Assembly: GCA_905221615.1 (NCBI GenBank)
Contig: CAJNDT010000608.1
Location: forward strand, 1-64,000
Source of the DNA: Symbiodinium sp. CCMP2592
Taxonomy: Eukaryota > Sar > Dinophyceae > Suessiales > Symbiodiniaceae
DNA length: 64,000 bases
Direction: 5' to 3'
A model generated the notes under the pieces. It searched no databases, was not told where the DNA came from, and was given only the letters and a program-made list of their open reading frames with translations. The translations under genes and the position numbers were made by a program. Numbering within the stretch: the stretch's first letter is position 1; each line of letters opens with the position of its first letter. This document shows positions 440 to 24,659 of this stretch, piece after piece.

Positions 440-604
440 GATTACGACGTGGGTTAAAGTGCAGGGTTCAAGATTCAGGGACAGCCGCTGTTCCTACGGT
501 TGATGGACAAAATCCTGCATTATCCAGTATAAGGAATCTACCATATAATTCCCATAGTTTAGGGTCCTTAGGGTCATGCAGGATTTGGTCCATCAACAGT
601 AGTA
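440..604. repeat. Partial 439-bp satellite repeat, 5' part only
   Basis: This copy matches the satellite for about 165 bp, including both arms of its inverted repeat (499-520 and 576-597; the right arm has one mismatch). It then departs into unique unit sequence at about 604. It is the last satellite copy before the Rep region, and the equivalent breakpoints at 10311 and 19989 are identical. Confidence 0.85.
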
Positions 605-1549
605 CCCTCCCCTTGCCCCACCGCAACAAAGATGTACTTCGCGGGCGTGCTTCCGCAATTCGCAAGTATCAAAGATTCAGACCTTGCCTCTGTTGCTCTT
701 AAGCTTTGTTTCGGCATCATTGTTTGAGGGGGGGAGGGGGAGGGTGGTTCCTCCTGTGGATCGTTTGGAGCAGACTGCACCACTAGGCTTTAGGGTGTAG
801 CACCACGGTCTTGCACCTGGGTCCTGGGGACAGCTGGTGGAGTCCGCAGTCTGCCATGGGCCTTTGGCAGCTTGGAGACTTGAAGTAGGTGTGAGCTGCA
901 AGGTCATGCACCTGGGCCTTGCTGGCAGCTGGTGGTGACCACAGTCTGCCATGGGCCTCTGGCAGCTTGGAGACTGTAGTAGGTTTGTAGGTTCTCGAGC
1001 TGTCATGGCAAGTGCAAGCTGAGTTTTCACTGGCCATTGGCCGCGAAGCTCGTTCGCTCCGGAAGGGGAGGGTGGTTTCTTTTGTCAGGAGCAAAGGCGT
1101 GATGGAGCTTGTTCTCAACCCAAACAGTATGTTGACACTTGGGGGTTCTTGCGTTGGGCGTCGAGAGAGTGGACGCAGTCGGACTTGTCATTCGGGCATT
1201 ATTGGTTAGAATAGCAGTTTTCGGAAATATTATGCTGTTTTCCATACCTTTTCCACTAGTTGAACCGATTTGGAGAAGAAGAACGGTATTGGCAGTTCCC
1301 GCAACGCGCACGCGCGCGCACGCGTGTAGAAACGGTGGTTGCGTGGCACGTGGCTCCCTCTGTCTGATGCATGTGTGTCTGTCCTCCTGCCAAAGGTGCT
1401 CAAATGCTTATGTTCGCAGTTGGAAAGAACGTGTACTGGTTCGACTGTTTAGCGATGTGTTACGGGTGCTGTTTCCTTGAACTTGCGGCAGCGTGCGGAA
1501 AGTTCTTGTTTGGGCTGCGGCGGCCCCAAAACAGTATGTCTGTGGTGCC
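605..1549. promoter_or_regulatory. Noncoding leader upstream of Rep, with a ~90-bp duplication and an alternating CG/CA tract
   Basis: No convincing coding sequence is seen. Two imperfect direct repeats of about 70 bp, spaced about 90 bp, lie at about 816-885 and 905-974; both contain CAGTCTGCCATGGGCC. At 1304-1328 there is an uninterrupted 25-nt alternating purine-pyrimidine tract rich in CG and CA, a classical Z-DNA-prone sequence, about 220 bp before the Rep start. The promoter itself is not recognisable. The same region precedes Rep in units 2 (10312-11256) and 3 (19990-20934). Confidence 0.5.
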
Positions 1550-2458
1550 ATGGCGGATGATTCGAATGCAGTTCTGCCAGTAGAGCCCGAGGGCCCTCCG
1601 CAGGCCGCTAACAGCTCTGCGTCTTCGCCCTCTTCTTCGTCGGGCAGTTCAGACAGTAGCTCTGAAGCAGACAGCTTGTCGTCGTCAGTTGAAGAAGAGC
1701 CCACTGCCTTTGAGCAACTGTACGACTCGGACGCCGAGTCGTCCGAGGATGAAGCTGTCGATCGCTTTGGAGATTTGAGCACAGCAAAGGATGATCATAG
1801 CTATCGGGGGCACACGGTCCATTTTTGGACCATTCCGTTTTCCAACGTGGAAGGGCGGACAACACCGGCAAACACGACGAAGGTACAGATAATGCGCGTT
1901 TTCCGCAAGATTTATGGGGCCGCATTGGCTTTCTACGCCGTGTTTCGCGAGCTCCATGCAGCCTCGGCCAAGAGTTGGGAGCGGCAGCCACATTATCACT
2001 TGGTGTTGAAGTTGAACCGGCGGGTCCGCTGGAAGCAGCTTGCACGCAAGTTGCGTGCTGAGGGGATTTTTGGGCATCTGTCTATTCCCAAGCGCAATGC
2101 CGACGTATGGCGTGTTCTGGCACATTGCTATGTGCCAAGTGCCAGAAAAGGTCTGACAGAGCTGGATGACGACCCGCTTTTCAGCAGCAAGTTTCCCACG
2201 GCAGAGATGGAAAAGAAATTCCGAGGCAAACTGCAGCGAGCAGCTTTGCGCCCGTCGGAGTTCTTTGAGGTCGTGCGACAGCATCCAGAGCTTCAGACGT
2301 TCAATGACTTGGTAGGCTGGGCTCAGCTACAGCGTTCGCAAGGCGTGAAGTTATACCAGGACTTTATGGCAAGACAAGGTGCTCGTATGGCGCCCTTATT
2401 TGCATCGTGGAAGGAACTGCTGGCGATGCTTGCGTCTAGAATAGCGCAGAAGTCATGA
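1550..2458 (+). CDS. Rep-like HUH replication initiator (unit 1, putative catalytic Tyr changed to His)
   Basis: Predicted product is 302 residues. The ATG at 1550 is chosen for its strong context (GCCATGG); the frame is open slightly upstream without ATG. Residues 1-80 are Ser/Glu/Asp-rich and probably disordered. From about residue 88 there is an arrangement like CRESS-DNA virus and plasmid Rep nucleases: a motif I-like HFWTIPF at 91-97, an HUH motif PHYHLVLKL at 147-155, and a motif III-like region near 192-200 ending in Lys. In this copy residue 192, before Cys-Tyr, is His (CAT at 2123); units 2 and 3 have Tyr. In the HUH family the motif III Tyr nicks DNA and stays covalently attached. 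No helicase domain follows in the same ORF, but an SF3 ORF starts just downstream in the same frame. The assignment rests on motifs only; it could be a domesticated or transposon Rep. Confidence 0.6.
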   Translation: MADDSNAVLPVEPEGPPQAANSSASSPSSSSGSSDSSSEADSLSSSVEEEPTAFEQLYDSDAESSEDEAVDRFGDLSTAKDDHSYRGHTVHFWTIPFSNVEGRTTPANTTKVQIMRVFRKIYGAALAFYAVFRELHAASAKSWERQPHYHLVLKLNRRVRWKQLARKLRAEGIFGHLSIPKRNADVWRVLAHCYVPSARKGLTELDDDPLFSSKFPTAEMEKKFRGKLQRAALRPSEFFEVVRQHPELQTFNDLVGWAQLQRSQGVKLYQDFMARQGARMAPLFASWKELLAMLASRIAQKS

Positions 2459-2539
2459 GTCGTATGCTAGGGTTGCTAGGGCTGCAAGGTTCCTTGTGCT
2501 TCTTTAGTCTTGAAACTAAGGAAGCCACAAACTGGGGAG
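2456..2539 (+). other. Rep/helicase junction: three in-frame stops and a plausible splice acceptor
   Basis: The Rep stop TGA (2456) is followed in the same frame by TAG at 2468 and 2477, and the frame is then open into the helicase ORF. A pyrimidine-rich tract ending CTTCTTTAG at 2507 resembles a 3' splice site. The junction is the same in units 2 and 3. A clean GT donor in the right phase was not found; dinoflagellates also use GC and GA donors, so an intron remains possible. Confidence 0.4.
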
Positions 2540-3679
2540 ATGCAGCGGCAAGAGCGGCTTCGCATATGGGACTCTGCCCGACAGCAGCCATGCATCTGCA
2601 CATCGCCAAATCGCCTCTCTGAGGCACTTTCACGACTGCTTGACTTTCACGAGAAGGATTCTCGACGTTTTGGCTTCATGATCAAGCGCCTCGTAAGACT
2701 TGGCACCAGCGCGAAGAACACATCGATCTTGCTTTGGGGCGAAAGCAACGCAGGGAAGACGGGGCTGAGCAGGCCGCTCATCCATCTCTATGGTGAGCGC
2801 GCATGGCTCCGTCCTAATCGTGGCGACACCTTCTGCTTGCAAGGCCTCGAAAAGCATTTGGTGGCTGTGTGGCAGGACTGGCGGCTGGAGAGTACGCCCG
2901 TGGCATGGGATACCCTTCTTCTGTGCCTTGAGGGAGAGTCCGTAACAGCAGCAGTCAAAGGCGGATCAGCTATCATCGTGCACAACCCGCCTCCATTTGT
3001 CATCACTTGCCAATCTCGGGTTTTGCCACGCAGCCGACAGGGAGCTGTGGACGAACAAGAACGCGCTGCTTTCAACAACAGATTTGGGTTGAGATGGCAT
3101 CTGCGTTCCAGTATGCCGAGGAGCATGCGGGATCCGGAGTTGAAGCTTTGCTATGCCTGCATTGGTTGCTACACGCGGTGGGTTGACCAGCAGTGTGAGG
3201 AGTATGTCCAAGCGTTTCCTGAGTGCGAGGCCGAGATCTTGCAGCTGGAGCGCGGACTTGCAGCAGTACATGCTTCTTTAGGTGCCGAGGAACCCCAAGC
3301 GAGTCAGAAGCGACGCCGAGTACAAAGGCCTGGAGACCATTTTGCACAGACAGCAACAAGCATGTCGGCGGGCTTCGCATCGAGCTCTTCTACGGTGCCG
3401 CCGGTTGGACCTGTGCATGTGGAGCAAGCAGAGCCGCAGCCTTTCACTCCGGACGGTCCGCCACCGGTTGGAGCACCCGTGCACGTGGAGCAAGCCGAGC
3501 CGCAGCCCTTTACTCCGCACGGTCCGCCACCAGCAAGTCCAACAACGCCACATGCCTTCACGCCGGAGCGTTGCTTGCAAGCCACGTCGCCGCCCCCGAA
3601 AGCCAGCAGTCCTGCCTTTGCCGTCACCCGTGCGCGCACGAAGCATGGTTGGTTGGACGTCACACCGCTGAAGCGTTGA
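2540..3679 (+). CDS. SF3 helicase ORF, Rep C-terminal-half-like (unit 1)
   Basis: Predicted product is 379 residues from the ATG at 2540; the frame is open from 2480. Walker A is GESNAGKT at 67-74, a Walker B-like segment is AVWQDW at 109-114, a B'-like Lys-Gly-Gly segment is near 140, and a sensor/motif C-like VITCQS at 154-159 is followed by Asn-Asn-Arg-Phe at 179-182, a candidate arginine finger. This order is that of SF3 helicases in Rep proteins of small DNA replicons. The usual motif C Asn is replaced by Gln. A Cys cluster lies at 204-210, a basic KRRR (likely nuclear signal) at 257-260, and a Pro-rich C-terminus holds two copies of a PVHVEQAEPQPFTP block. It lies in frame with Rep, separated by three stops, so splicing into one Rep protein is plausible. 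Confidence 0.65.
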   Translation: MQRQERLRIWDSARQQPCICTSPNRLSEALSRLLDFHEKDSRRFGFMIKRLVRLGTSAKNTSILLWGESNAGKTGLSRPLIHLYGERAWLRPNRGDTFCLQGLEKHLVAVWQDWRLESTPVAWDTLLLCLEGESVTAAVKGGSAIIVHNPPPFVITCQSRVLPRSRQGAVDEQERAAFNNRFGLRWHLRSSMPRSMRDPELKLCYACIGCYTRWVDQQCEEYVQAFPECEAEILQLERGLAAVHASLGAEEPQASQKRRRVQRPGDHFAQTATSMSAGFASSSSTVPPVGPVHVEQAEPQPFTPDGPPPVGAPVHVEQAEPQPFTPHGPPPASPTTPHAFTPERCLQATSPPPKASSPAFAVTRARTKHGWLDVTPLKR

Positions 3680-5104
3680 GCATAAAAGCACGAAAACCCA
3701 ATTTTTTCCTCCAAAAAACCGTTCCTCTAAATAAGGCCGCGGTTTGCGATGTTTCACGACCTTCTACTTGTGTTGCTCCCGTCAGGTTTTGTTGACATGC
3801 CCGCGCCCAATGCAAGCCGGATTCCTCAGAGTGTATCAGTGTCAGCTTAATGTTTCTGCTGGTCGGCAATGTAAACAGAAGCAGTGTTGCACGCAAGAAC
3901 TTGTCAGGTGCTTCTGTCAGTGCGGGAAGTGCGCAGTACTTGCAAGTCTTAGCAAGTTGCAAGTTTGCGCCTGTGAGGTTGTGGATAACATGCCCCATGC
4001 GGAGCGCGAAATGCGGGATGCCTCAGAGATGCAGGGTCTCAGGGTTTCCGGTTTTGAGATTGTTAAGCGTGGGTCCAGGTCTGCGAGGCTGCGCTGTCAG
4101 AAAAATTTGCTTGTTGTAGCTGGCACTAGATGCTTGCTTTCCGCCGGGACGGGGTTTAGGAGGATTTGCAAGGGAGGGTTTAGGGGACGATCTGCAGCGA
4201 GGAAGTTGAGGGAGGGATCTGCGAGGGAGGGTTTAGGGTAGCATCTGTAGCGAGGGAGTTGAGGGAGAGGTCTGCAAGGGAGGGTTTAGGGCAGGATCTG
4301 CAAGGGGGTCTGCGAAGAAATTGCAAGGTGGGTTTAGGGAGGGATCTACAAGAGGGTTTAGGGGAGGATCTGCAGGGGAGGGCCTGCAAGGTGGGTTTAG
4401 GGAAGGATTTGCAAACGAGGGCTTAGGACAGGGGTGAAGGAGGGGTCTGCAGGGGTGGGTTTAGGGAAGCCATTGCGAAAACGGACGAGAGCAAGCGAGC
4501 AAACTTCTGGTGCTAATCTAAAGTAATTGGTAATCAGAGTTCGTCTTGGTTTTTGAAGTTTTCTCAATTGCTCGCCGCATCTGGCCAAAGGCAAAAGCCT
4601 GCAGGGGTCAGAACAGCGAGCGTTGTGCTGTAGAGCCTCTCTGCCTGGCCCGAACAGGAGTGTAGGTTGGCCTCTAAACCCCTAATCCCGCTTAGAAGCG
4701 TGTAGAAGCTTTTTCTGCCCCGAAAGCCCTAAGAACGCCAGGTTGCATTGCGACAGGTGCGTAAGACCCCCCTTTCTCCTGTTCGGTTCGTCCGGCAAGG
4801 TGCGGGGGCCTGCCTTTTTACGTGGGTGCCTACGGCGCCCTCTCCACACAATGTGCGGCGCCTCCAGAGCGTTTAGGGCTGAGGAAACAGATTCTTTCTC
4901 GGTTAGCTCACTTGTCCTGCGTGGGTCGGCTTGGGGTGTAGGTAGGCCTCCAGCCAGGTACCGTAGCACCCATGCAATATCGAGGCAAGGGCTGTGCTCT
5001 CAGTGCAATTGCAGCATGTGGTCTTTGTTGAGCGAATGTTTGTACCCGCAGCCGTTTTGGTGCACTGTGAACGAGTAAGGAGGGCGCGAGACCGACCTGA
5101 GACC
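3680..5104. other. Noncoding spacer with telomere-like G-rich block
   Basis: No convincing gene is seen between the helicase stop and the first transposase exon. At about 4150-4470 lies a degenerate G-rich minisatellite on the + strand, with seven GGGTTTAGGG cores alternating with GATCTGCAAGGGAGG-like segments. The rest is unique. A short run of T and A tracts (about 3700-3730) follows the helicase stop. Confidence 0.6.
4150..4470 (+). repeat. G-rich minisatellite with GGGTTTAGGG cores (unit 1)
   Basis: About 320 bp in which the telomere-type motif TTTAGGG recurs every ~30-50 bp, embedded in G-runs. The spacing and multiple G3 runs would permit G-quadruplexes on the + strand. It is conserved at 13859-14180 and 23537-23858. 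It is not a pure telomere array. Confidence 0.75.
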
Positions 5105-5296
5105 ATGGCGAGCCATGGTGCCGAGGCAAGCAACGAGGGCGCCGCTCCAGCTCCAGCTCCAGCTGCTCCGGCTCCGGCTCCAGCTAACCCTCCACCACAG
5201 GACTGGGGACCACTTGCGGGGGGCCTGAGACAGGCCAACTTCGTGCTACAGGCGTATGACCCCCCAGAGTTCCACCTTGCGCGCTCCAAGTCCTAG
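5105..5296 (+). CDS. Putative first exon of the transposase gene (unit 1)
   Basis: The ATG at 5105 has a strong context (GACCATGGCG) and opens a 63-codon frame ending at a TAG. It encodes an Ala/Pro-rich segment (residues 13-29) followed by a more complex tail beginning Gln-Asp-Trp-Gly. A good acceptor (TCGCGTCTAG at 5443) starts the next coding stretch, so the last codons before the stop are probably intronic. The function of this N-terminus is unknown; linkage to the transposase is inferred from position and conservation in all three units. Confidence 0.45.
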   Translation: MASHGAEASNEGAAPAPAPAAPAPAPANPPPQDWGPLAGGLRQANFVLQAYDPPEFHLARSKS

Positions 5297-5443
5297 TGGT
5301 ACTTCGCAAACCCGAAGCAATCAATCTGTGTTCAGTTTTGTAAGGGGTATCTGGTGGGTCATTTTATGCAGACAGACAAAGAGCGCTGTTGCTATTTTTG
5401 CTGTTGTGTTAGGCACTTCTGTTTTTGGTTTGCTCGCGTCTAG

Positions 5444-6107
5444 GAGCAGGTGAAACAACTGAAGCGTGAGCTCAAAGCTGCAAACATGGCAAAGTACAGA
5501 GCACGCTGTGATGGTGAACGCGGTGGACTGACACAGTTCCAGTTGAACGTTCTGCTCTGTGTCTTTGTTTTGTCGGGGCATGTGACAGATGTTGCTGTGG
5601 CATACCTAAGGGCAGCGCATGCACAGCGGCGCCGCCAACAAACAGAAGTTCTGGACCCAAGGCTATTTGTCGAGGAGCGGTATTTGGAAGCCAAGATTGA
5701 CTGGTTGGTGGCGTTAGAAAGCCCGTCCGATGAAGCATGTCCCAAGATCCAGCGGATTCGTAGTGGGGCGCAGAAATTTGTAAGTGAGCATCAGGCTGCT
5801 GCTTTTTGTAAGTGAGCATCAGGCTGCTGCTTTTGTGGCCAGATCAAATTTGAAAGGGGCGGCACCCAGCTCCCGACAGGTATGTGCTGGTTTCTGTGCT
5901 GGCTTGGATGAAGTAGGCGGCATTGATCTGCTATCTGGCTTGAGGCGATCTGCGTACAACAGCGTGATTCAGAAACAGCATGGGCGCTGGTTTCGGCGAT
6001 GGTGTGCTGGTTTTCGAAGACGCTGGGGCATAAAAATCGGGTTCCTTCGCGCTAAGCCTAAACTGCGCGTGGAAGAGGAGGCTGCAAAAGAACCTTGTTT
6101 TGATTGA
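5444..6107 (+). pseudogene. Transposase DNA-binding region, interrupted by a 28-bp duplication (unit 1)
   Basis: The coding stretch begins after the acceptor at 5443. A tandem 28-bp duplication (5778-5805 and 5806-5833) shifts the frame and ends the product at 5815; the remainder continues in another frame to 6107. Units 2 shows the uninterrupted form. Near the end is a Trp/Arg/Phe-rich stretch (WFRRW, FRRRWGIKIG) that resembles the second helix-turn-helix of CENP-B/pogo-type transposases. If the duplicated part, which contains GTAAGTGAG, lies in an intron, the damage would be smaller than it looks. Confidence 0.5.
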
Positions 6108-6430
6108 GCAAACATTTCGTTTCTATGTTGGCGTCCTGCTGTGATGTACAGCCCCTGAACTCTTTAGGGTGTCAAAACTTGAAGAAGAGAATATGTCGAC
6201 TTGGGCTTGGGGTCAAGTCTTGGGGGAGCCAATGGGGGGGACTTGGGGCTCCATTGTTGGGTTCCTGTTTGGGGTACCAGTTTGGGGGTCCAGTTTCGGG
6301 GCTGGAATCCGCTGGAAAAGGCCGGCAGATCGGGTGGGTCTTTTTCGGGGGTCCTTATTGGAGTCCCAAATGGGTCCCGCTTTTCGAGCCAAAAAAAAAC
6401 GCCCTTTTCGGAGAGTTCTCCATCCACTAG

Positions 6431-7261
6431 GCCACAGCATTTCGTCGCCATGTGGCATGGCTTCGTGCTCAAGTGCCCGCTCACAAGAAGCCCTTACTGG
6501 TTAACTTTGACGAGACGTCGATGAAATACGGGTTTGAAGCTTATGGCAACGTCGTGCAAAGTTCAAGCTGTCATGGCCCTTGCACCAAGCAGGATAAGAG
6601 GTTGTGTGTCACACAAGTTCTTGCTGCTTGTGACCAAACGGAAGTGCAGCCGCATTTACCGCAGTTCACCATAACCAACTGTCGTACTGTGACGGCAAAA
6701 CAGTTCAAAGCAGTTCGTGCCAAAAAGCCCCGCGGGTCCAGCTTGTTCCGTGAGAAATCAGCATGGACTAACAGTCGTTTGACGTGTCTTTTCCTGAAGC
6801 GTTTGAGAGCTGCAACTGTGGCATTCAAATCCTACCAAGTCATTGTTTTGATGGACACGGCAAGTCCACATTTGGCACGTGAAGTTCTGAGAACAGCTGC
6901 CATCGCGGACATTTGGGTGTGCCCTGTTCCTCCAGGCACCACTGGTACTTGTCAACCCTTGGACGTTGGCATTTTGGGACGGTACAAGCGTCATGTGCTG
7001 GATTTGTGTCAGACGTGCATGACGAAGGATGGTGAAGGTTTGTCACGTTTTGCTTGGTTGGAAATCCTAAGCAAGGCAGGTCCAAGTTTTTTACGGCAGT
7101 ATGCTTGGAAACCAGTGTTTGATCGAATTGGTTTGTACAGACCAAGCGACGGCTGCCTGAACGAAGCAGACTTTCAACTCTTGTTGCCTCGCAAGCGCAA
7201 GATTAATCGCATGGATTGGCTGTGTAAGCCGCTGCAGGGCAAGCCGCTGCGGATTTCGTAG
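6431..7261 (+). CDS. DDE transposase catalytic exon, pogo/CENP-B (DDE_1) type (unit 1)
   Basis: The exon is taken to start after the acceptor CATCCACTAG at 6430; in-frame residues continue upstream of any ATG. Three acidic residues appear in the family's order: Asp in VNFDETS, Asp in VIVLMDTASPH (the D-x4-H pattern), and Asp in TCQPLDVGILGRYK. The last two are separated by 35 residues, so this is DD35D, within the pogo/Tc1-mariner range. Such proteins excise and insert DNA transposons at TA sites in the nucleus. Against unit 2 there is a Tyr/His and an Ile/Ser difference, neither at a catalytic position. The spacer 6108-6430 varies in length between units without regard to frame, so it is probably an intron. 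Confidence 0.75.
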   Translation, partial: ATAFRRHVAWLRAQVPAHKKPLLVNFDETSMKYGFEAYGNVVQSSSCHGPCTKQDKRLCVTQVLAACDQTEVQPHLPQFTITNCRTVTAKQFKAVRAKKPRGSSLFREKSAWTNSRLTCLFLKRLRAATVAFKSYQVIVLMDTASPHLAREVLRTAAIADIWVCPVPPGTTGTCQPLDVGILGRYKRHVLDLCQTCMTKDGEGLSRFAWLEILSKAGPSFLRQYAWKPVFDRIGLYRPSDGCLNEADFQLLLPRKRKINRMDWLCKPLQGKPLRIS

Positions 7262-7535
7262 TCGTAGCCTCACTAGCTCCCAAGTTTGTGCTGTCTTGAG
7301 TAGCGCTTTCTGTTCCTACTGGTGTTGCCACAGACTCTCCCTCTGACAGTCGGCTTAATCGTCAGTGCCAGGCTCCACTGTAGGGGGCTGGAGGGTTGTG
7401 GTTACGTTTTGCTGCTAAGTAGACCCCCTGAACCTCGACGCCCAGATTCGTCTGTTTTGGTAGTGAAAAAACCCCTGAATCTGGGAACTCTTAATAGGAC
7501 CTCGACGCCCTCAATTAGCATCCTTCTCCTTGTAG
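7262..7535. other. Spacer or intron with repeated GACCTCGACGCCC motifs
   Basis: Between the transposase stop and the next exon no long frame exists. The motif (A/G)ACCTCGACGCCC occurs at about 7431, 7498 and 7535. The first and third copies continue as AGATTCG, and the last one begins the exon. The third is preceded by a pyrimidine tract and TAG acceptor (7533-7535). Confidence 0.5.
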
Positions 7536-7718
7536 GACCTCGACGCCCAGATTCGCATGCTCAAGGCAAGGAAGCTGGACGCCAAAAAGGCCTGCAGAGA
7601 GCACCAGAAGGCTTTGCGCGCTGTGCAGAAGCGCAAGGCGAAACTTGTAAAGAAGACGAAGGCTCTCTCAGTGAGAGACTTGGAAATCATCCTAGCGGCC
7701 CGCCAAGCGGCCCCCTAA
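7536..7718 (+). CDS. 60-codon basic coiled-coil exon of unknown gene (unit 1)
   Basis: A frame of 60 codons plus TAA begins immediately after the acceptor CTTCTCCTTGTAG. It begins Asp-Leu-Asp-Ala-Gln-Ile-Arg and is dominated by Lys, Arg, Ala and Leu with heptad-like spacing, ending Ala-Ala-Arg-Gln-Ala-Ala-Pro. The composition is clearly protein-like and is conserved exactly in frame in unit 2. It may be the last exon of the transposase transcript or of a separate small gene. No family is recognised. Confidence 0.45.
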   Translation, partial: DLDAQIRMLKARKLDAKKACREHQKALRAVQKRKAKLVKKTKALSVRDLEIILAARQAAP

Positions 7719-8854
7719 GATCGTTTGCAGATCTGCAGCGGCCCGTCTAGCGGCCCCGTAAGATCATTTGCAGGGGAAGCATATCCCTGCGTGTGGTCTG
7801 AAATTCTCCAAGCTCGAAGTACTCTCGAAGTGACAGAAAAAGTCCGATCTGTGCAGAGTTAGACCGTGTCGTAGCAGTGCTAATGCCATCCGTATTCTAC
7901 AGTCGGTCAGCGGCTGCAGGTGTGGCTCAGTACCACTGTAGAGTGCGATGGCAGCACACGCAGTTTCAGATTCCTTGATGACTTGCAGTTTGCAGTTTGG
8001 CATGCTCCAGATGTGTGTATTCAGATAAGAAAAAGGCAAGTGTGGAGGTGCTGCGGCTTTTGCCTGCGAGCCTTTTACTGCCAGTTAGAAAGTGCCAGGA
8101 CCAAGGCAGATGTAGAGGTGCTGCGGCTTTCGCCTGCGATCCTCTACACTGCCAGTTAAAAAAGTGCAAGGGCCAAGGCAGATGTAGAGGTGCTGCGGCC
8201 TTTGCCTGCGATCCTCTACACTGTGCAACGGCCAAGGCCAAGGCAGATGTAGAGGTGCTGCGGCTTTTGCCTGCGATCCTCTACACTGTACAACGGCCAA
8301 GGCAGATGTAGAGGTGCTGCGGCTTTCGCCTGCGATCTTCTACACTGCCAGTTAAAAAGTGCAGCTAAAGCAGATGTAAAGGCGAGGTTGTGGGTCTTCA
8401 TGACCAAATTTGTTTCTGCAAGCAGCAAAATTGGCCGGCATGCAGTTTTGCAAGCGTCCAATACCGAATCCCTGTGAGGTGCTGCTAGGAGTGCATTTAC
8501 ACATCCCGAAACAATTTTGGGTGCTGCAGTTTTCGGCCGCAGGCCGCCAGCCTGCCAAGGACTCAGAGAACGAACGCTCCACTTGCCCATTCGACTGCAC
8601 TTTGCTTCTACACCAGGTATGGAAGATGGAAGTGGGCATTCTTGATGCCCTTCGAAAGGCGCGCCAGCTCTGAGAGTTAAGCTTGGAGACTGCCGTACTT
8701 CGTGCCCAACTGTGAGCGTTGAGAGTGCAGAAGAACACAAGTAGGTCAGGGCATTCGACTGCACTTCGCTTCTGCACCAGGTATGGACCGGTATGGAAGA
8801 TGGAAGTGGGCATTCTGGATGCCCTTCGAAAGGCGCGCCAGCTCAGAGTTAAGC
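7719..8854. other. Noncoding 3' part of the unit, with minisatellite and ~100-bp duplication
   Basis: No gene is recognised. It holds a ~65-bp minisatellite (8034-8360) and two direct copies of a ~90-100-bp block around 8575-8660 and 8753-8850, both containing GGTATGGAAGATGGAAGTGG and GAAAGGCGCGCCAGCTC. The second copy runs into the first, truncated satellite repeat at 8855. Confidence 0.55.
8034..8360. repeat. ~65-bp minisatellite, five copies (unit 1)
   Basis: Five imperfect units share AGAGGTGCTGCGGCTTT and GCCTGCGATCCTCTACACT. Within each unit GTAGAGG and CCTCTAC form a 7-bp inverted repeat, so each could fold into a hairpin. Spacing ranges from about 55 to 71 bp. Confidence 0.8.
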
Positions 8855-10311
8855 GGGTTCAAGATTCAGGGACAGACGCTGTTCCTACGGTTGATGGACA
8901 AAATCCTGCATTATCCAGTATAAGGAATCTACCATATAATTCCCGTAGTTTAGGGTCCTTAGGGTCATGCAGAATTTTGTCCATCAACAGTAGTACCAGC
9001 GGCAGTGCGCTCGTAAAAAAAAATAGGTTATCACGTGTTCTATCTATTTGGCGCTGTTTTGCGGGCTTGGTTGATTTGGGTAGCGTTTTCCAATGCAAAT
9101 CGCAAAGCTTCAAAGCCTGTCGGCTTGTCAGACCTAAAGTATCAAACCCTAAACCTTCAAAACCTTAAAGTAGGGCTCAACAAACCTGCACGAAATCGGC
9201 CCTTCCCAAGGTCTGTCGTGCTCACGGTGTAAAGCAGGCTGGGGCCCCACGCTCGAAGCATGCTTGAGCGATTACGACGTGGGTTAAAGTGCAGGGTTAA
9301 AGATTCAGGGACAGACGCTGTTCCTACGGTTGATGGACAAAATCCTGCATTATCCAGTATAAGGAATCTACCATATAATTCCCATAGTTTAGGGTCCTTA
9401 GGGTCATGCAGGATTTTGTCCATCAACAGTAGTACCAGCGGCAGTGCGCTCGTAAAAAAAATAGGTTATCACGTGTTCTATCTATTTGGCGCTGTTTTGC
9501 GGGCTTGGTTGATTTGGGTAGCGTTTTCCAATGCAAATCGCAAAGCTTCAAAGCCTGTCGGCTTGTCAGACCTAAAGTATCAAACCCTAAACCTTCAAAA
9601 CCTTAAAGTAGGGCTCAACAAACCTGCACGAAATCGGCCCTTCCCAAGGTCTGTCGTGCTCACGGTGTAAAGCAGGCTGGGGCCCCACGCTCGAAGCATG
9701 CTTGAGCGATTACGACGTGGGTTAAAGTGCAGGGTTCAAGATTCAGGGACAGACGCTGTTCCTACGGTTGATGGACAAAATCCTGCATTATCCAGTATAA
9801 GGAATCTACCATATAATTCCCATAGTTTAGGGTCCTTAGGGTCATGCAGAATTTTGTCCATCAACAGTAGTACCAGCGGCAGTGCGCTCGTAAAAAAAAA
9901 TAGGTTATCACGTGTTCTATCTATTTGGCGCTGTTTTGCGGGCTTGGTTGATTTGGGTAGCGTTTTCCAATGCAAATCGCAAAGCTTCAAAGCCTGTCGG
10001 CTTGTCAGACCTAAAGTATCAAACCCTAAACCTTCAAAACCTTAAAGTAGGGCTCAACAAACCTGCACGAAATCGGCCCTTCCCAAGGTCTGTCGTGCTC
10101 ACGGTGTAAAGCAGGCTGGGGCCCCACGCTCGAAGCATGCTTGAGCGATTACGACGTGGGTTAAAGTGCAGGGTTCAAGATTCAGGGACAGACGCTGTTC
10201 CTACGGTTGATGGACAAAATCCTGCATTATCCAGTATAAGGAATCTACCATATAATTCCCATAGTTTAGGGTCCTTAGGGTCATGCAGGATTTTGTCCAT
10301 CAACAGTAGTA
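8855..10311. repeat. 439-bp satellite array at the unit 1/unit 2 junction
   Basis: A 5'-truncated copy (8855-9269), two full copies (9270-9707, 438 bp because of one missing A; 9708-10146) and a 3'-truncated copy (10147-10311). The copies are nearly identical. Each of them carries the 22-bp inverted repeat. Confidence 0.9.
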
Positions 10312-11010: not shown

Positions 11011-11035
11011 ACGCGCACGCGCGCGCACGCGTGTA
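11011..11035. other. Alternating CG/CA tract upstream of Rep (unit 2)
   Basis: A 25-nt alternating purine-pyrimidine tract identical to 1304-1328, a Z-DNA-prone sequence in the otherwise noncoding leader 10312-11256. The leader also holds the ~90-bp duplication seen in unit 1. Confidence 0.6.
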
Positions 11036-11256
11036 GAAACGGTGGTTGCGTGGCACGTGGCTCCCTCTGTCTGATGCATGTGTGTCTGTCCTCCTGCCAA
11101 AGGTGCTCAAATGCTTATGTTCGCAGTTGGAAAGAACGTGTACTGGTTCGACTGTTTAGCGATGTGTTACGGGTGCTGTTTCCTTGAACTTGCGGCAGCG
11201 TGCGGAAAGTTCTTGTTTGGGCTGCGGCGGCCCCAAAACAGTATGTCTGTGGTGCC

Positions 11257-14813: not shown

Positions 14814-15005
14814 ATGGCGAGCCATGGTGCCGAGGCAAGCAACGAGGGCGCCGCTCCAGCTCCAGCTCCAGCTGCTCCGGCTCCGGCTCCAGCTAACCCT
14901 CCACCACAGGACTGGGGACCACTTGAGGGGGGCCTGAGACAGGCCAGCTTCGTGCTACAGGCGTATGACCCCCCAGAGTTCCACCTTGCGCGCTCCAAGT
15001 CCTAG
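14814..15005 (+). CDS. Putative first transposase exon (unit 2)
   Basis: This is the same ATG context and Ala/Pro-rich 63-codon frame as in unit 1, with Ala-to-Glu and Asn-to-Ser replacements near residues 39 and 45. The next acceptor (TAG) ends at 15152. Confidence 0.45.
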   Translation: MASHGAEASNEGAAPAPAPAAPAPAPANPPPQDWGPLEGGLRQASFVLQAYDPPEFHLARSKS

Positions 15006-15152
15006 TGGTACTTCGCAAACCCGAAGCAATCAATCTGTGTTCAGTTTTGTAAGGGGTATCTGGTGGGTCATTTTATGCAGACAGACAAACAGCGCTGTTG
15101 CTATTTTTGCTGTTGTGTTAGGCACTTCTGTTTTTGGTTTGCTCGCGTCTAG

Positions 15153-15788: not shown

Positions 15789-16100
15789 GCAAACATTTCG
15801 TTTCTATGTTGGCGTCCTGCTGTGATGTACAGCCCCTGAACTCTTTAGGGTGTCAAAACTTGAAGAAGAGAATATGTCGACTTGGGCTTGGGGTCAAGTC
15901 TTGGGGGAGCCAATGGGGAGGACTTGGGGCTCCATTGTTGGGTTCCTGTTTGGGGTACCAGTTTGGGGGTCCAGTTTCGGGGCTGGAAAAGGCCGGCAGA
16001 TCGGGTGGGTCTTTTTCGGGGGTCCTTATTGGAGTCCCAAATGGGTCCCGCTTTTCGAGCCAAAAAAAACGCCCTTTTCGGAGAGTTCTCCATCCACTAG

Positions 16101-16931
16101 GCCACAGCATTTCGTCGCCATGTGGCATGGCTTCGTGCTCAAGTGCCCGCTCACAAGAAGCCCTTACTGGTTAACTTTGACGAGACGTCGATGAAATACG
16201 GGTTTGAAGCTCATGGCAACGTCGTGCAAAGTTCAAGCTGTCATGGCCCTTGCACCAAGCAGGATAAGAGGTTGTGTGTCACACAAGTGCTTGCTGCTTG
16301 TGACCAAACGGAAGTGCAGCCGCATTTACCGCAGTTCACCATAACCAACTGTCGTACTGTGACGGCAAAACAGTTCAAAGCAGTTCGTGCCAAAAAGCCC
16401 CGCGGGTCCAGCTTGTTCCGTGAGAAATCAGCATGGACCAACAGTCGTTTGACGTGTCTTTTCCTGAAGCGTTTGAGAGCTGCAACTGTGGCATTCAAAT
16501 CCTACCAAGTCATTGTTTTGATGGACACGGCAAGTCCACATTTGGCACGTGAAGTTCTGAGAACAGCTGCCAGCGCGGACATTTGGGTGTGCCCTGTTCC
16601 TCCAGGCACCACTGGTACTTGTCAACCCTTGGACGTTGGCATTTTGGGACGGTACAAGCGTCATGTGCTGGATTTGTGTCAGACGTGCATGACGAAGGAT
16701 GGTGAAGGTTTGTCACGTTTTGCTTGGTTGGAAATCCTAAGCAAGGCAGGTCCAAGTTTTTTACGGCAGTATGCTTGGAAACCAGTGTTTGATCGAATTG
16801 GTTTGTACAGACCAAGCGACGGCTGCCTGAACGAAGCAGACTTTCAACTCTTGTTGCCTCGCAAGCGCAAGATTAATCGCATGGATTGGCTGTGTAAGCC
16901 GCTGCAGGGCAAGCCGCTGCGGATTTCGTAG
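16101..16931 (+). CDS. DDE transposase catalytic exon (unit 2)
   Basis: Same exon as 6431-7261, with the acceptor TAG at 16098-16100. All three catalytic Asp residues are present, as DD35D. Differences from unit 1 are His for Tyr after Glu-Ala near the first Asp, and Ser for Ile at residue 151 of the frame. Confidence 0.75.
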   Translation, partial: ATAFRRHVAWLRAQVPAHKKPLLVNFDETSMKYGFEAHGNVVQSSSCHGPCTKQDKRLCVTQVLAACDQTEVQPHLPQFTITNCRTVTAKQFKAVRAKKPRGSSLFREKSAWTNSRLTCLFLKRLRAATVAFKSYQVIVLMDTASPHLAREVLRTAASADIWVCPVPPGTTGTCQPLDVGILGRYKRHVLDLCQTCMTKDGEGLSRFAWLEILSKAGPSFLRQYAWKPVFDRIGLYRPSDGCLNEADFQLLLPRKRKINRMDWLCKPLQGKPLRIS

Positions 16932-17212
16932 TCGTAGCCTCACTAGCTCCCAAGTTTGTGCTGTCTTGAGTAGCGCTTTCTGTTCCTACTGGTGTTGCCA
17001 CAGACTCTCCCTCTGACATACGTCAGTCGGCTTAATCGTCAGTGCCAGGCTCTACTGTAGGGGGCTGGAGGGTTGTGGTTACGTTTTGCTGCTAAGTAGA
17101 CCCCCTGAACCTCGACGCCCAGATTCGTCTGTTTTGGTAGTGAAAAAACCCCTGAATCTGGGAACTCTTAATAGGACCTCGACGCCCTCAATTAGCATCC
17201 TTCTCCTTGTAG

Positions 17213-17395
17213 GACCTCGACGCCCAGATTCGCATGCTCAAGGCAAGGAAGCTGGACGCCAAAAAGGCCTGCAGAGAGCACCAGAAGGCTTTGCGCGCTG
17301 TGCAGAAGCGCAAGGCGAAACTTGTAAAGAAGACGAAGGCTCTCTCAGTGAGAGACTTGGAAATCATCCTAGCGGCCCGCCAAGCGGCCCCCTAA
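17213..17395 (+). CDS. 60-codon basic coiled-coil exon (unit 2)
   Basis: An exact positional equivalent of 7536-7718, again directly after a CCTTGTAG acceptor and again preceded by extra copies of the GACCTCGACGCCC motif. Product unknown. Confidence 0.45.
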   Translation, partial: DLDAQIRMLKARKLDAKKACREHQKALRAVQKRKAKLVKKTKALSVRDLEIILAARQAAP

Positions 17396-18531
17396 GATCG
17401 TTTGCAGATCTGCAGCGGCCCGTCTAGCGGCCCCGTAAGATCATTTGCAGGGGAAGCATATCCCTGCGTGTGGTCTGAAATTCTCCAAGCTCGAAGTACT
17501 CTCGAAGTGACAGAAAAAGTCCGATCTGTGCAGAGTTAGACCGTGTCGTAGCAGTGCTAATGCCATCCGTATTCTACAGTCGGTCAGCGGCTGCAGGTGT
17601 GGCTCAGTACCACTGTAGAGTGCGATGGCAGCACACGCAGTTTCAGATTCCTTGATGACTTGCAGTTTGCAGTTTGGCATGCTCCAGATGTGTGTATTCA
17701 GATAAGAAAAAGGCAAGTGTGGAGGTGCTGCGGCTTTTGCCTGCGAGCCTTTTACTGCCAGTTAGAAAGTGCCAGGACCAAGGCAGATGTAGAGGTGCTG
17801 CGGCTTTCGCCTGCGATCCTCTACACTGCCAGTTAAAAAAGTGCAAGGGCCAAGGCAGATGTAGAGGTGCTGCGGCCTTTGCCTGCGATCCTCTACACTG
17901 TGCAACGGCCAAGGCCAAGGCAGATGTAGAGGTGCTGCGGCTTTTGCCTGCGATCCTCTACACTGGGCAACGGCCAAGGCAGATGTAGAGGTGCTGCGGC
18001 TTTCGCCTGCGATCTTCTACACTGCCAGTTAAAAAGTGCAGCTAAAGCAGATGTAAAGGTGAGGTTGTGGGTCTTCATGACCAAATTTGTTTCTGCAAGC
18101 AGCAAAATTGGCCGGCATGCAGTTTTGCAAGCGTCCAATACCGAATCCCTGTGAGGTGCTGCTAGGAGTGCATTTACACATCCCGAAACAATTTTGGGTG
18201 CTGCAGTTTTCGGCCGCAGGCCGCCAGCCTGCCAAGGACTCAGAGAACGAACGCTCCACTTGCCCATTCGACGGCACTTTGCTTCTACACCAGGTATGGA
18301 AGATGGAAGTGGGCATTCTTGATGCCCTTCGAAAGGCGCGCCAGCTCTGAGAGTTAAGCTTGGAGACTGCCGTACTTCGTGCCCAACTGTGAGCGTTGAG
18401 AGTGCAGAAGAACACAAGTAGGTCAGGGCATTCGACTGCACTTCGCTTCTGCACCAGGTATGGACCGGTATGGAAGATGGAAGTGGGCATTCTGGATGCC
18501 CTTCGAAAGGCGCGCCAGCTCAGAGTTAAGC
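17396..18531. other. Noncoding 3' part of unit 2
   Basis: Equivalent to 7719-8854: the five-copy ~65-bp minisatellite at about 17711-18037, and the ~90-100-bp duplicated block near 18252-18337 and 18430-18527. No gene is seen. Confidence 0.55.
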
Positions 18532-19989
18532 GGGTTCAAGATTCAGGGACAGACGCTGTTCCTACGGTTGATGGACAAAATCCTGCATTATCCAGTATAA
18601 GGAATCTACCATATAATTCCCGTAGTTTAGGGTCCTTAGGGTCATGCAGAATTTTGTCCATCAACAGTAGTACCAGCGGCAGTGCGCTCGTAAAAAAAAA
18701 TAGGTTATCACGTGTTCTATCTATTTGGCGCTGTTTTGCGGGCTTGGTTGATTTGGGTAGCGTTTTCCAATGCAAATCGCAAAGCTTCAAAGCCTGTCGG
18801 CTTGTCAGACCTAAAGTATCAAACCCTAAACCTTCAAAACCTTAAAGTAGGGCTCAACAAACCTGCACGAAATCGGCCCTTCCCAAGGTCTGTCGTGCTC
18901 ACGGTGTAAAGCAGGCTGGGGCCCCACGCTCGAAGCATGCTTGAGCGATTACGACGTGGGTTAAAGTGCAGGGTTCAAGATTCAGGGACAGACGCTGTTC
19001 CTACGGTTGATGGACAAAATCCTGCATTATCCAGTATAAGGAATCTACCATATAATTCCCATAGTTTAGGGTCCTTAGGGTCATGCAGAATTTTGTCCAT
19101 CAACAGTAGTACCAGCGGCAGTGCGCTCGTAAAAAAAAATAGGTTATCACGTGTTCTATCTATTTGGCGCTGTTTTGCGGGCTTGGTTGATTTGGGTAGC
19201 GTTTTCCAATGCAAATCGCAAAGCTTCAAAGCCTGTCGGCTTGTCAGACCTAAAGTATCAAACCCTAAACCTTCAAAACCTTAAAGTAGGGCTCAACAAA
19301 CCTGCACGAAATCGGCCCTTCCCAAGGTCTGTCGTGCTCACGGTGTAAAGCAGGCTGGGGCCCCACGCTCGAAGCATGCTTGAGCGATTACGACGTGGGT
19401 TAAAGTGCAGGGTTCAAGATTCAGGGACAGACGCTGTTCCTACGGTTGATGGACAAAATCCTGCATTATCCAGTATAAGGAATCTACCATATAATTCCCA
19501 TAGTTTAGGGTCCTTAGGGTCATGCAGAATTTTGTCCATCAACAGTAGTACCAGCGGCAGTGCGCTCGTAAAAAAAAATAGGTTATCACGTGTTCTATCT
19601 ATTTGGCGCTGTTTTGCGGGCTTGGTTGATTTGGGTAGCGTTTTCCAATGCAAATCGCAAAGCTTCAAAGCCTGTCGGCTTGTCAGACCTAAAGTATCAA
19701 ACCCTAAACCTTCAAAACCTTAAAGTAGGGCTCAACAAACCTGCACGAAATCGGCCCTTCCCAAGGTCTGTCGTGCTCACGGTGTAAAGCAGGCTGGGGC
19801 CCCACGCTCGAAGCATGCTTGAGCGATTACGACGTGGGTTAAAGTGCAGGGTTCAAGATTCAGGGACAGACGCTGTTCCTACGGTTGATGGACAAAATCC
19901 TGCATTATCCAGTATAAGGAATCTACCATATAATTCCCATAGTTTAGGGTCCTTAGGGTCATGCAGGATTTTGTCCATCAACAGTAGTA
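18532..19989. repeat. 439-bp satellite array at the unit 2/unit 3 junction
   Basis: Truncated copy (18532-18946), full copies 18947-19385 and 19386-19824, and truncated copy 19825-19989. The copy number and breakpoints equal those of the unit 1/2 junction, so the satellite was amplified before, not after, the 9.7-kb unit was multiplied. Confidence 0.9.
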
Positions 19990-20934
19990 CCCTCCCCTTG
20001 CCCCACCGCAACAAAGATGTACTTCGCGGGCGTGCTTCCGCAATTCGCAAGTATCAAAGATTCAGACCTTGCCTCTGTTGCTCTTAAGCTTTGTTTCGGC
20101 ATCATTGTTTGAGGGGGTGAGGGGGAGGGTGGTTCCTCCTGTGGATCGTTTGGAGCAGACTGCACCACTAGGCTTTAGGGTGTAGCACCACGGTCTTGCA
20201 CCTGGGTCCTGGGGACAGCTGGTGGAGTCCGCAGTCTGCCATGGGCCTTTGGCAGCTTGGAGACTTGAAGTAGGTGTGAGCTGAAAGGTCATGCACCTGG
20301 GCCTTGCTGGCAGCTGGTGGTGACCACAGTCTGCCATGGGCCTCTGGCAGCTTGGAGACTGTAGTAGGTTTGTAGGTTCTCGAGCTGTCATGGCAAGTGC
20401 AAGCTGAGTTTTCACTGGCCATTGGCCGCGAAGCTCGTTCGCTCCGGAAGGGGAGGGTGGTTTCTTTTGTCAGGAGCAAAGGCGTGATGGAGCTTGTTCT
20501 CAACCCAAACAGTATGTTGACACTTGGGGGTTCTTGCGTTGGGCGTCGAGAGAGTGGACGCAGTCGGACTTGTCATTCGGGCATTATTGGTTAGAATAGC
20601 AGTTTTCGGAAATATTATGCTGTTTTCCATACCTTTTCCACTAGTTGAACCGATTTGGAGAAGAAGAACGGTATTGGCAGTTCCCGCAACGCGCACGCGC
20701 GCGCACGCGTGTAGAAACGGTGGTTGCGTGGCACGTGGCTCCCTCTGTCTGATGCATGTGTGTCTGTCCTCCTGCCAAAGGTGCTCAAATGCTTATGTTC
20801 GCAGTTGGAAAGAACGTGTACTGGTTCGACTGTTTAGCGATGTGTTACGGGTGCTGTTTCCTTGAACTTGCGGCAGCGTGCGGAAAGTTCTTGTTTGGGC
20901 TGCGGCGGCCCCAAAACAGTATGTCTGTGGTGCC

Positions 20935-21843
20935 ATGGCGGATGATTCGAATGCAGTTCTGCCAGTAGAGCCCGAGGGCCCTCCGCAGGCCGCTAACAGC
21001 TCTGCGTCTTCGCCCTCTTCTTCGTCGGGCAGTTCAGACAGTAGCTCTGAAGCAGACAGCTTGTCGTCGTCAGTTGAAGAAGAGCCCACTGCCTTTGAGC
21101 AACTGTACGACTCGGACGCCGAGTCGTCCGAGGATGAAGCTGTCGATCGCTTTGGAGATTTGAGCACAGCAAAGGATGATCATAGCTATCGGGGGCACAC
21201 GGTCCATTTTTGGACCATTCCGTTTTCCAACGTGGAAGGGCGGACAACACCGGCAAACACGACGAAGGTACAGATAATGCGCGTTTTCCGCAAGATTTAT
21301 GGGGCCGCATTGGCTTTCTACGCCGTGTTTCGCGAGCTCCATGCAGCCTCGGCCAAGAGTTGGGAGCGGCAGCCACATTATCACTTGGTGTTGAAGTTGA
21401 ACCGGCGGGTCCGCTGGAAGCAGCTTGCACGCAAGTTGCGTGCTGAGGGGATTTTTGGGCATCTGTCTATTCCCAAGCGCAATGCCGACGTATGGCGTGT
21501 TCTGGCATATTGCTATGTGCCAAGTGCCAGAAAAGGTCTGACAGAGCTGGATGACGACCCGCTTTTCAGCAGCAAGTTTCCCACGGCAGAGATGGAAAAG
21601 AAATTCCGAGGCAAACTGCAGCGAGCAGCTTTGCGCCCGTCGGAGTTCTTTGAGGTCGTGCGACAGCATCCAGAGCTTCAGACGTTCAATGACTTGGTAG
21701 GCTGGGCTCAGCTACAGCGTTCGCAAGGCGTGAAGTTATACCAGGACTTTATGGCAAGACAAGGTGCTCGTATGGCGCCCTTATTTGCATCGTGGAAGGA
21801 ACTGCTGGCGATGCTTGCGTCTAGAATAGCGCAGAAGTCATGA
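20935..21843 (+). CDS. Rep-like HUH replication initiator (unit 3)
   Basis: 302 residues, matching the unit 2 copy including Tyr at residue 192. The noncoding leader 19990-20934 repeats the duplication and the alternating CG/CA tract (20689-20713). Confidence 0.62.
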   Translation: MADDSNAVLPVEPEGPPQAANSSASSPSSSSGSSDSSSEADSLSSSVEEEPTAFEQLYDSDAESSEDEAVDRFGDLSTAKDDHSYRGHTVHFWTIPFSNVEGRTTPANTTKVQIMRVFRKIYGAALAFYAVFRELHAASAKSWERQPHYHLVLKLNRRVRWKQLARKLRAEGIFGHLSIPKRNADVWRVLAYCYVPSARKGLTELDDDPLFSSKFPTAEMEKKFRGKLQRAALRPSEFFEVVRQHPELQTFNDLVGWAQLQRSQGVKLYQDFMARQGARMAPLFASWKELLAMLASRIAQKS

Positions 21844-21924
21844 GTCGTATGCTAGGGTTGCTAGGGCTGCAAGGTTCCTTGTGCTTCTTTAGTCTTGAAA
21901 CTAAGGAAGCCACAAACTGGGGAG

Positions 21925-23064
21925 ATGCAGCGGCAAGAGCGGCTTCGCATATGGGACTCTGCCCGACAGCAGCCATGCATCTGCACATCGCCAAATCGCC
22001 TCTCTGAGGCACTTTCACGACTGCTTGACTTTCACGAGAAGGATTCTCGACGTTTTGGCTTCATGATCAAGCGCCTCGTAAGACTTGGCACCAGCGCGAA
22101 GAACACATCGATCTTGCTTTGGGGCGAAAGCAACGCAGGGAAGACGGGGCTGAGCAGGCCGCTCATCCATCTCTATGGTGAGCGCGCATGGCTCCGTCCT
22201 AATCGTGGCGACACCTTCTGCTTGCAAGGCCTCGAAAAGCATTTGGTGGCTGTGTGGCAGGACTGGCGGCTGGAGAGTACGCCCGTGGCATGGGATACCC
22301 TTCTTCTGTGCCTTGAGGGAGAGTCCGTAACAGCAGCAGTCAAAGGCGGATCAGCTATCATCGTGCACAACCCGCCTCCATTTGTCATCACTTGCCAATC
22401 TCGGGTTTTGCCACGCAGCCGACAGGGAGCTGTGGACGAACAAGAACGCGCTGCTTTCAACAACAGATTTGGGTTGAGATGGCATCTGCGTTCCAGTATG
22501 CCGAGGAGCATGCGGGATCCGGAGTTGAAGCTTTGCTATGCCTGCATTGGTTGCTACACGCGGTGGGTTGACCAGCAGTGTGAGGAGTATGTCCAAGCGT
22601 TTCCTGAGTGCGAGGCCGAGATCTTGCAGCTGGAGCGCGGACTTGCAGCAGTACATGCTTCTTTAGGTGCCGAGGAACCCCAAGCGAGGCAGAAGCGACG
22701 CCGAGTACAAAGGCCTGGAGACCATTTTGCACAGACAGCAACAAGCATGTCGGCGGGCTTCGCATCGAGCTCTTCTACGGTGCCGCCGGTTGGACCTGTG
22801 CATGTGGAGCAAGCAGAGCCGCAGCCTTTCACTCCGGACGGTCCGCCACCGGTTGGAGCACCCGTGCACGTGGAGCAAGCCGAGCCGCAGCCCTTTACTC
22901 CGCACGGTCCGCCACCAGCAAGTCCAACAACGCCACATGCCTTCACGCCGGAGCGTTGCTTGCAAGCCACGTCGCCGCCCCCGAAAGCCAGCAGTCCTGC
23001 CTTTGCCGTCACCCGTGCGCGCACGAAGCATGGTTGGTTGGACGTCACACCGCTGAAGCGTTGA
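21925..23064 (+). CDS. SF3 helicase ORF (unit 3)
   Basis: 379 residues, matching the unit 2 copy including Arg255. All SF3-like motifs are intact. Confidence 0.65.
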   Translation: MQRQERLRIWDSARQQPCICTSPNRLSEALSRLLDFHEKDSRRFGFMIKRLVRLGTSAKNTSILLWGESNAGKTGLSRPLIHLYGERAWLRPNRGDTFCLQGLEKHLVAVWQDWRLESTPVAWDTLLLCLEGESVTAAVKGGSAIIVHNPPPFVITCQSRVLPRSRQGAVDEQERAAFNNRFGLRWHLRSSMPRSMRDPELKLCYACIGCYTRWVDQQCEEYVQAFPECEAEILQLERGLAAVHASLGAEEPQARQKRRRVQRPGDHFAQTATSMSAGFASSSSTVPPVGPVHVEQAEPQPFTPDGPPPVGAPVHVEQAEPQPFTPHGPPPASPTTPHAFTPERCLQATSPPPKASSPAFAVTRARTKHGWLDVTPLKR

Positions 23065-24491
23065 GCATAAAAGCACGAAAACCCAATTTTTTCCTCCAAA
23101 AAACCGTTCCTCTAAATAAGGCCGCGGTTTGCGATGTTTCACGACCTTCTACTTGTGTTGCTCCCGTCAGGTTTTGTTGACATGCCCGCGCCCAATGCAA
23201 GCCGGATTCCTCAGAGTGTATCAGTGTCAGCTTAATGTTTCTGCTGGTCGGCAATGTAAACAGAAGCAGTGTTGCACGCAAGAACTTGTCAGGTGCTTCT
23301 GTCAGTGCGGGAAGTGCGCAGTACTTGCAAGTCTTAGCAAGTTGCAAGTGTTGCGCCTGTGAGGTTGTGGATGACATGCCCCACGCGGAGCGCGAAATGC
23401 GGGATGCCTCAGAGCTGCAGGGTCTCAGGGTTTCCGGTTTTGAGATTGTTAAGCGTGGGTCCAGGTCTGCGAGGCTGCGCTGTCAGAAAAATTTGCTTGT
23501 TGTAGCTGGCACTAGATGCTTGCTTTCCGCCGGGACGGGGTTTAGGAGGATTTGCAAGGGAGGGTTTAGGGGACGATCTGCAGCGAGGAAGTTGAGGGAG
23601 GGATCTGCGAGGGAGGGTTTAGGGTAGCATCTGCAGCGAGGGAGTTGAGGGAGAGGTCTGCAAGGGAGGGTTTAGGGCAGGATCTGCAAGGGGGTCTGCG
23701 AAGAAATTGCAAGGTGGGTTTAGGGAGGGATCTACAAGAGGGTTTAGGGGAGGATCTGCAGGGGAGGGCCTGCAAGGTGGGTTTAGGGAAGGATTTGCAA
23801 ACGAGGGCTTAGGACAGGGTTGAAGGAGGGGTCTGCAGGGGTGGGTTTAGGGAAGCCATTGCGAAAACGGACGAGAGCAAGCGAGCAAACTTCTGGTGCT
23901 AATCTAAAGTAATTGGTAATCAGAGTTCGTCTTGGTTTTTGAAGTTTGCTCAATTGCTCGCCGCATCTGGCCAAAGGCAAAAGCCTGCAGGGGTCAGAAC
24001 AGCGAGCGTTGTGCTGTAGAGCCTCTCTGCCTGGCCCGAACAGGAGTGTAGGTGGGCCTCTAAACCCCTAATCCCGCTTGGAAGCGTGTAGAAGCTTTTT
24101 CTGCCCCGAAAGCCCTAAGAACGCCAGGTTGCATTGCGACAGGTGCGTAAGACCCACCTTTCTGCCTGTTCGGTTCGTCCGGCAAGGTGCGGGGGCCTGC
24201 CTTTTTACGTGGGTGCCTACGGCGCCCTCTCCACACAATGTGCGGCGCCTCCAGAGCGTTTAGGGCTGAGGAAACAGATTCTTTCTCGGTTAGCTCACTT
24301 GTCCTGCGTGGGTCGGCTTGGGGTGTAGGTAGGCCTCCAGCCAGGTACCGTAGCACCCATGCAATCTCGAGGCAAGGGCTGTGCTCTCAGTGCAATTGCA
24401 GCATGTGGTCTTTGTTGAGCGAATGTTTGTACCCGCAGCCGTTTTGGTGCGCTGTGAACGAGTAAGGAGGGCGCGAGACCGACCTGAGACC
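23065..24491. other. Noncoding spacer with telomere-like G-rich block (unit 3)
   Basis: Equivalent to 3680-5104, with the GGGTTTAGGG minisatellite at 23537-23858. No gene is seen. Confidence 0.6.
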
Positions 24492-24659
24492 ATGGCGAGC
24501 CATGGTGCCGAGGCAAGCAACGAGGGCGCCGCTCCAGCTCCAGCTCCAGCTGCTCCGGCTCCGGCTCCAGCTAACCCTCCACCACAGGACTGGGGACCAC
24601 TTGAGGGGGGCCTGAGACAGGCCAACTTCGTGCTACAGGCGTATGACCCCCCAGAGTAG
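24492..24659 (+). pseudogene. Truncated first transposase exon at the array edge (unit 3)
   Basis: The ATG and Ala/Pro-rich segment match units 1 and 2 up to Pro-Pro-Glu. The array then ends and a TAG from the flanking sequence closes the frame. Confidence 0.6.

Follow-up and report, generated by a model that had tools for sequence, protein, structure and literature searches.

A composite-like dinoflagellate element, probably a DNA transposon, with a DDE transposase gene between long direct repeats that can carry Rep and SF3 helicase genes

The window analysed here is a stretch of 64,000 nucleotides from Symbiodinium sp. CCMP2592 (contig CAJNDT010000608.1, positions 1 to 64,000; C608), the first 24.66 kb of which form a tandem array with a period of 9.7 kb and about 2.5 repeats. 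Self-alignment of the window matched positions 1-14979 to 9708-24657 with 99.38% identity over 14,989 columns. In a full period the 439-bp repeats are followed by a Rep ORF, then by one for the SF3 helicase and, downstream, by one for the DDE transposase, and the window as a whole holds three Rep-SF3 pairs versus only two DDE genes. A preliminary description had reported a single 9.7-kb unit, present at least 2.5 times in succession, that encodes an HUH Rep together with SF3 helicase and DD35D transposase, an arrangement that we confirm (99.4% identity); however, the unit that it took for the element does not hold, as the true boundaries are not those of the 9.7-kb period. They are instead the junctions between a direct repeat of 3.9-7.6 kb bounded by terminal inverted repeats (TIRs), hereafter the core, and the DDE-bearing segment, hereafter INT.

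In the window these boundaries fall at 5269/5270, 7377/7378, 14978/14979, 17054/17055 and 24656, and the cores, INTs, 439-bp repeats and Rep, SF3 and DDE ORFs described below are all read on the forward strand. Core 1 (1..5269) is represented by its right part, with its left end outside the window and its right TIR at 5249-5269, and is followed by INT 1 (5270..7377; 2108 bp), which holds a DDE gene and a 28-nt duplication at 5777-5834. Core 2 (7378..14978; 7601 bp) is complete, with CTGTAGGGGG as its left and CCCCCCAGAG as its right TIR, and INT 2 with the other DDE gene (14979..17054; 2076 bp) separates it from the likewise complete core 3 (17055..24656; 7602 bp), whose right end is that of the array and is adjoined by a TA (24657..24658), presumably half of a target-site duplication. 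The 439-bp repeats occupy 8855..10313 and 18532..19991, in 3.3 copies each and with a hairpin in every copy, and are a candidate replication origin; the single copy that was folded, from the second block, gave a z of -7.2, with none of 200 shuffles as good. A G-rich minisatellite lies at 13860-14180 and at equivalent positions, its unit containing GGGTTTAGGG, which is similar to TTTAGGG, the telomere repeat of the plant type. Where the cores end, two open stretches (14814-14990 and 17213-17392; MASHGAEAS..., DLDAQIRMLKARK...) have the appearance of exons from a further gene on either side of INT, and beside the array, at 30018-57505, long ORFs resemble copia-type and LINE-type retrotransposons, as judged from the ORFs.

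The Rep ORF is found at 1493..2458, 11200..12165 and 20878..21843 and carries an HxH at residues 167/169, while the SF3 ORF is found at 2510..3679, 12217..13386 (in the frame of Rep, 51 bases on) and 21895..23064, with the Walker A motif GESNAGKT at residue 77. Against Pfam, SF3 reached PPV_E1_C at E 1e-4 and 22 bits, under the cut-off of 26.5 for that family, Rep gave no relevant match and none to a Rep family, and Parvo_NS1 appeared in the scan at E 0.18. The Rep assignment is based on residues H167, H169, Y211 and K219, which are invariant in an alignment of six relatives, on relatives that hold Rep and SF3 within one protein (P0003, P0011-P0015, P0017, P0018 and P0022), and on the structure model of one of these, P0018, whose best viral matches are named Rep/NS1 models, CRESS Reps among them. 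The aligned relatives have a motif III of the form Y-x-x-x-P-[ST]-x-x-K, and a further relative, P0020, carries PF01057. Because the relatives are single proteins, the Rep and SF3 ORFs presumably constitute one gene with an intron. Two other relatives, P0016 (SF3, 56% identical) and P0009 (DDE, near-identical but deleted), may lie on one contig of another genome, with unequal divergence.

Residue 211 of Rep reads His in 9 of 21 rows, the first unit of the window (1493..2458) included and three rows being repeat reads of copies. As this Tyr is invariant in the relatives, some units of the array may encode a Rep that is unable to nick. Distinct variants of Rep comprise 11 non-silent versus 3 silent changes, with 9 of the 14 crowded into residues 112-115, and those of SF3 comprise 8 versus 2 and those of DDE 21 versus 9, such that no excess of silent changes was seen among the distinct variants of Rep, SF3 or DDE.

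The catalytic exon of the transposase lies at 6452..7261 and 16122..16931, with a spacing of 35 residues between the second and third D in a DD35D arrangement, and matches DDE_1 at E 1.4e-8 with 34.9 bits (cut-off 22). Profile searches of Pfam thereby support the DDE assignment of the preliminary description, but leave SF3 below the PPV_E1_C cut-off and Rep without a relevant match. An open region upstream of the catalytic exon (15153..15785) probably corresponds to N-terminal exons; it gave no Pfam match, and hence none to an N-terminal HTH domain, and two INT ORFs searched against Pfam yielded DDE_1 as the sole match, with no His-Me finger nuclease in these two ORFs. The DDE exon is open in 20 of the 21 full-length copies read. 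Sixteen of 21 aligned INTs, from several loci, differ from each other by 0-8 pairwise substitutions in about 2.08 kb, and the other five (one of the two in the window, two of C1651 and two of C3271) differ by 9-34.

Across the genome, where about 220 kb of chosen loci were read in addition to L001-L008, Rep DNA gave 35 matches from 35 candidates, all of them scored. Of these, 33 were full-length (99-100%) and two were partial (98-100%), and most are arrayed with spacings of roughly 8.8 to 13.8 kb. DDE DNA gave 114 candidates, of which the 40 scored all matched at 100% after rounding; 18 of the 40 sit on nine contigs in which Rep DNA had no match. Closer inspection distinguished three core types, namely R, with Rep-SF3 and 6.6-7.6 kb long, S1, which lacks unit positions 497-3148, and S2, which lacks 388-554 and 692-3300. 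The whole Rep-SF3 region is missing in both S1 and S2, and since their breakpoints differ, we read the sequences as two separate losses. An INT with DDE accompanies all three types. Arrays of the Rep-less types are tandem too, so that tandem arrays do not require Rep in cis. The DDE segment is present in every core-to-core junction read, from Rep-bearing and Rep-less units alike, and the TIRs lie on the core, which rules out chance nesting of a DDE transposon in a Rep-derived sequence, an alternative that the preliminary description had raised. In C2913 (L023 6775 to L012 6415) and C1430 (L014 1-8292), a 9.6-kb insertion with direct ends of about 233 bp, probably an LTR retrotransposon, occupies an identical site inside a core.

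The TIRs belong to the core and not to the DDE segment, the left end matching the complement of the right end at 8 of the first 10 bases and the 5' terminus of the core being CT. Array and composite ends lie at fixed unit positions across loci with differing flanks, at CTGTAGGGGG for left ends and CCCCCCAGAG for right ends. When ends were located without requiring TA, a TA stood outside all five left ends (C2913, C4498, C113, C4982 and C118) and all five right ends (C608, which is the window, C725, C113, C118 and C4974), and so on both sides at C113 and C118; the count leaves aside C221, with an aberrant right end, and C2535, whose array starts truncated at unit position 4282. Exact patterns that included the TA found 10 left and 14 right ends genome-wide (control, 0 each), the left figure being an undercount because the pattern demanded a flank base other than C and missed C4498. 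Of the core ends compared, 17 of 19 on the right and 18 of 20 on the left are internal and join INT, with TT instead of TA at 17/17 of these right junctions and CA in place of TA at 5/18 of the left ones.

Six pairs of ends lie on one contig each. Four are core-INT-core (9.8-10.8 kb), of which C113 (10,805 bp) and C118 (10,722 bp; right TIR with three mismatches) were fully read, and C5369 (10,722 bp) and C5347 (9,841 bp; right end a pattern match only) were classified by size, ends and one core-INT junction each. A fifth, C4974, has a TA at both ends and, at 3,986 bp, is a solo core by size. The sixth, C4168:620096-650447 (L039, L048), has ends 30,352 bp apart, and because both inner stretches read proved inverted, it may not be one insertion. 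All four complete core-INT-core insertions lack Rep-SF3, two as fully read and two as judged from core size and absence from the Rep matches. For insertions that do carry Rep, no contig was seen to contain both ends, and the four clean ends of this kind are spread over four contigs. The earlier proposal that Rep/SF3 and DDE form one element is accordingly upheld only in part: the genes do occur together in arrays with outer TIRs and TA, but DDE lies outside the TIR-bounded core, and these four insertions manage without Rep-SF3.

In 11.7-kb units two INTs abut, with the junction CTC[T/C]A-CTG-TT-CCACC in 6/6 rows, where CTG corresponds to bases 1-3 of the left TIR. Excision by Tc1/mariner-type enzymes leaves such a 3-nt footprint. 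The six rows may stem from few events, because loci overlap (C2913, C1430). The first cores of C113 and C4982 (4368 and 4369 bp) share indels, as do their second cores (4362 and 4363 bp), but the second core of C113 differs by only 8-9 substitutions from the first cores and by 12 from the second core of C4982, so movement of composites as one is only hinted at.

We consider it likely that the array represents a composite-like DNA transposon, organized as (core-INT)n-core and moved by its DDE enzyme, with Rep-SF3 as an accessory replicase in the long core. The strongest competitor, which we nonetheless regard as unlikely, holds that the core alone is a Rep-bearing transposon without its own transposase, that two insertions trapped a passenger DDE gene and that another transposase moves the core. 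The location of DDE outside the core TIRs, the core excision footprints and the solo-core-sized TIR pair at C4974 are all consistent with this account; however, recombination can also yield a solo core, the DDE class fits insertion at TA, one INT is present in 4 of the 6 end pairs, and the DDE exon has stayed open in nearly all copies while two core types have gone without Rep-SF3. Tandem gene arrays are common in dinoflagellates, and near-identical head-to-tail arrays on many contigs might suggest an ordinary amplified genomic segment or gene array that is immobile, but we give this very little credence, as arrays and single composites with differing flanks end at the same two fixed points with TA, including the unrelated sites read on C113 and C118, and footprint junctions are present. 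Least probable of all is an integrated concatemer of a Rep-encoding virus or plasmid, with arrays made by rolling circle and integrated at random, for which the head-to-tail units, hairpin repeats and predicted resemblance of Rep-SF3 to parvovirus NS1 and CRESS Rep models would speak, but the ends lie at fixed TIRs with TA, neither random nor at the hairpin, and are shared by Rep-less arrays.

For the composite transposon, we propose that the DD35D transposase encoded in INT would cut the outermost TIRs and insert the composite at TA; its class points to this enzyme as the probable mover, as do the TA and the footprint CTG. Excision of single cores from arrays would leave INT-INT junctions with the 3-nt footprint, and crossing over between cores could change n and produce solo cores. 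Shorter, Rep-less cores would be mobilized without Rep-SF3 or by Rep-SF3 in trans. More speculatively, Rep-SF3 might nick the hairpin repeats and drive extra copying, giving rise to multimers. This role is the weakest step of the mechanism, and that it operates at present in many units is doubtful because of His211 in 9/21 rows and the tandem state of Rep-less arrays. A fuller division of labour is conceivable, although we lean against it: DDE would insert (core-INT)n-core, and Rep-SF3 would copy core-INT circles by rolling-circle replication from the core hairpins, making long arrays and restoring the composite form, with Rep-less cores living off Rep-SF3. One mobile element may in this manner combine two DNA-handling engines, a cut-and-paste transposase and a virus-type replication protein, and would offer one route to long tandem arrays in such genomes. 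The association of a viral-type replicase with a cut-and-paste element in near-identical copies makes a replicative role of Rep in a eukaryotic transposon testable.

Among known systems, Helitrons have no TIRs, insert between A and T and carry an SF1-type helicase; a Helitron is ruled out here by the TIRs and TA, and the helicase weakly matches SF3 families. Tc1/mariner/pogo elements combine a DD35D DDE_1 enzyme with a TA target, short TIRs and a 3-nt footprint, and our element shares the DDE_1 match, DD35D, TA (10/10 ends), short TIRs and CTG footprint, but differs in having its transposase gene between two minimal TIR units instead of inside one. Rep-SF3 has the order of parvovirus NS1 and CRESS-DNA Reps, an HUH endonuclease and then an SF3 helicase, a likeness to which the P0018 model points, but differs in the Rep without a Pfam match and in the motif III of the aligned relatives, and the three named relatives are dinoflagellate proteins.

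Two published elements come closest. The preliminary description knew of no eukaryotic transposon with this pair of enzymes, a claim that is contradicted by an element of Tuber melanosporum which, in the part of the report drawn on here (PMC3198968), is a TIR-bounded transposon in which a geminivirus-like Rep ORF accompanies two transposase ORFs, in copies more than 95% identical, with 37-bp TIRs, no obvious TSD and ORFs interrupted or truncated. Both elements combine a Rep of viral type with transposase coding sequence within a single TIR element, but ours has TA, ORFs that are open, a Rep that no Pfam Rep family matched and a direct-repeat composite structure. KolobokP of animals, according to the excerpted account (PMC9587614), consists of an internal DDE gene flanked by long direct repeats at its termini, each of which has TIRs of its own, and forms solo repeats, (repeat-INT)n-repeat multimers and INT-INT junctions ascribed to repeat excision. 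Multimer formation is proposed to be promoted by an accessory DNA nuclease, and the nuclease inside its INT is of the His-Me, homing type. It uses a Kolobok transposase, with a TSD of 3-4 or 4-5 bp, 5'-RR termini and repeats of about 450 or 660 bp. The repeat-INT-repeat order, the TIRs in each repeat, the multimers and a solo-core-sized pair recur here, but with a DDE_1 DD35D enzyme, TA, a 5'-CT terminus, much longer repeats (3.9-7.6 kb) that can carry HUH Rep-SF3, and a dinoflagellate as host. A KolobokP-like composite architecture with another transposase class in a protist suggests that such architectures may have arisen more than once. As far as these accounts describe the two elements, ours works like KolobokP yet is not a member of it, and it differs from both KolobokP and the Tuber melanosporum element.
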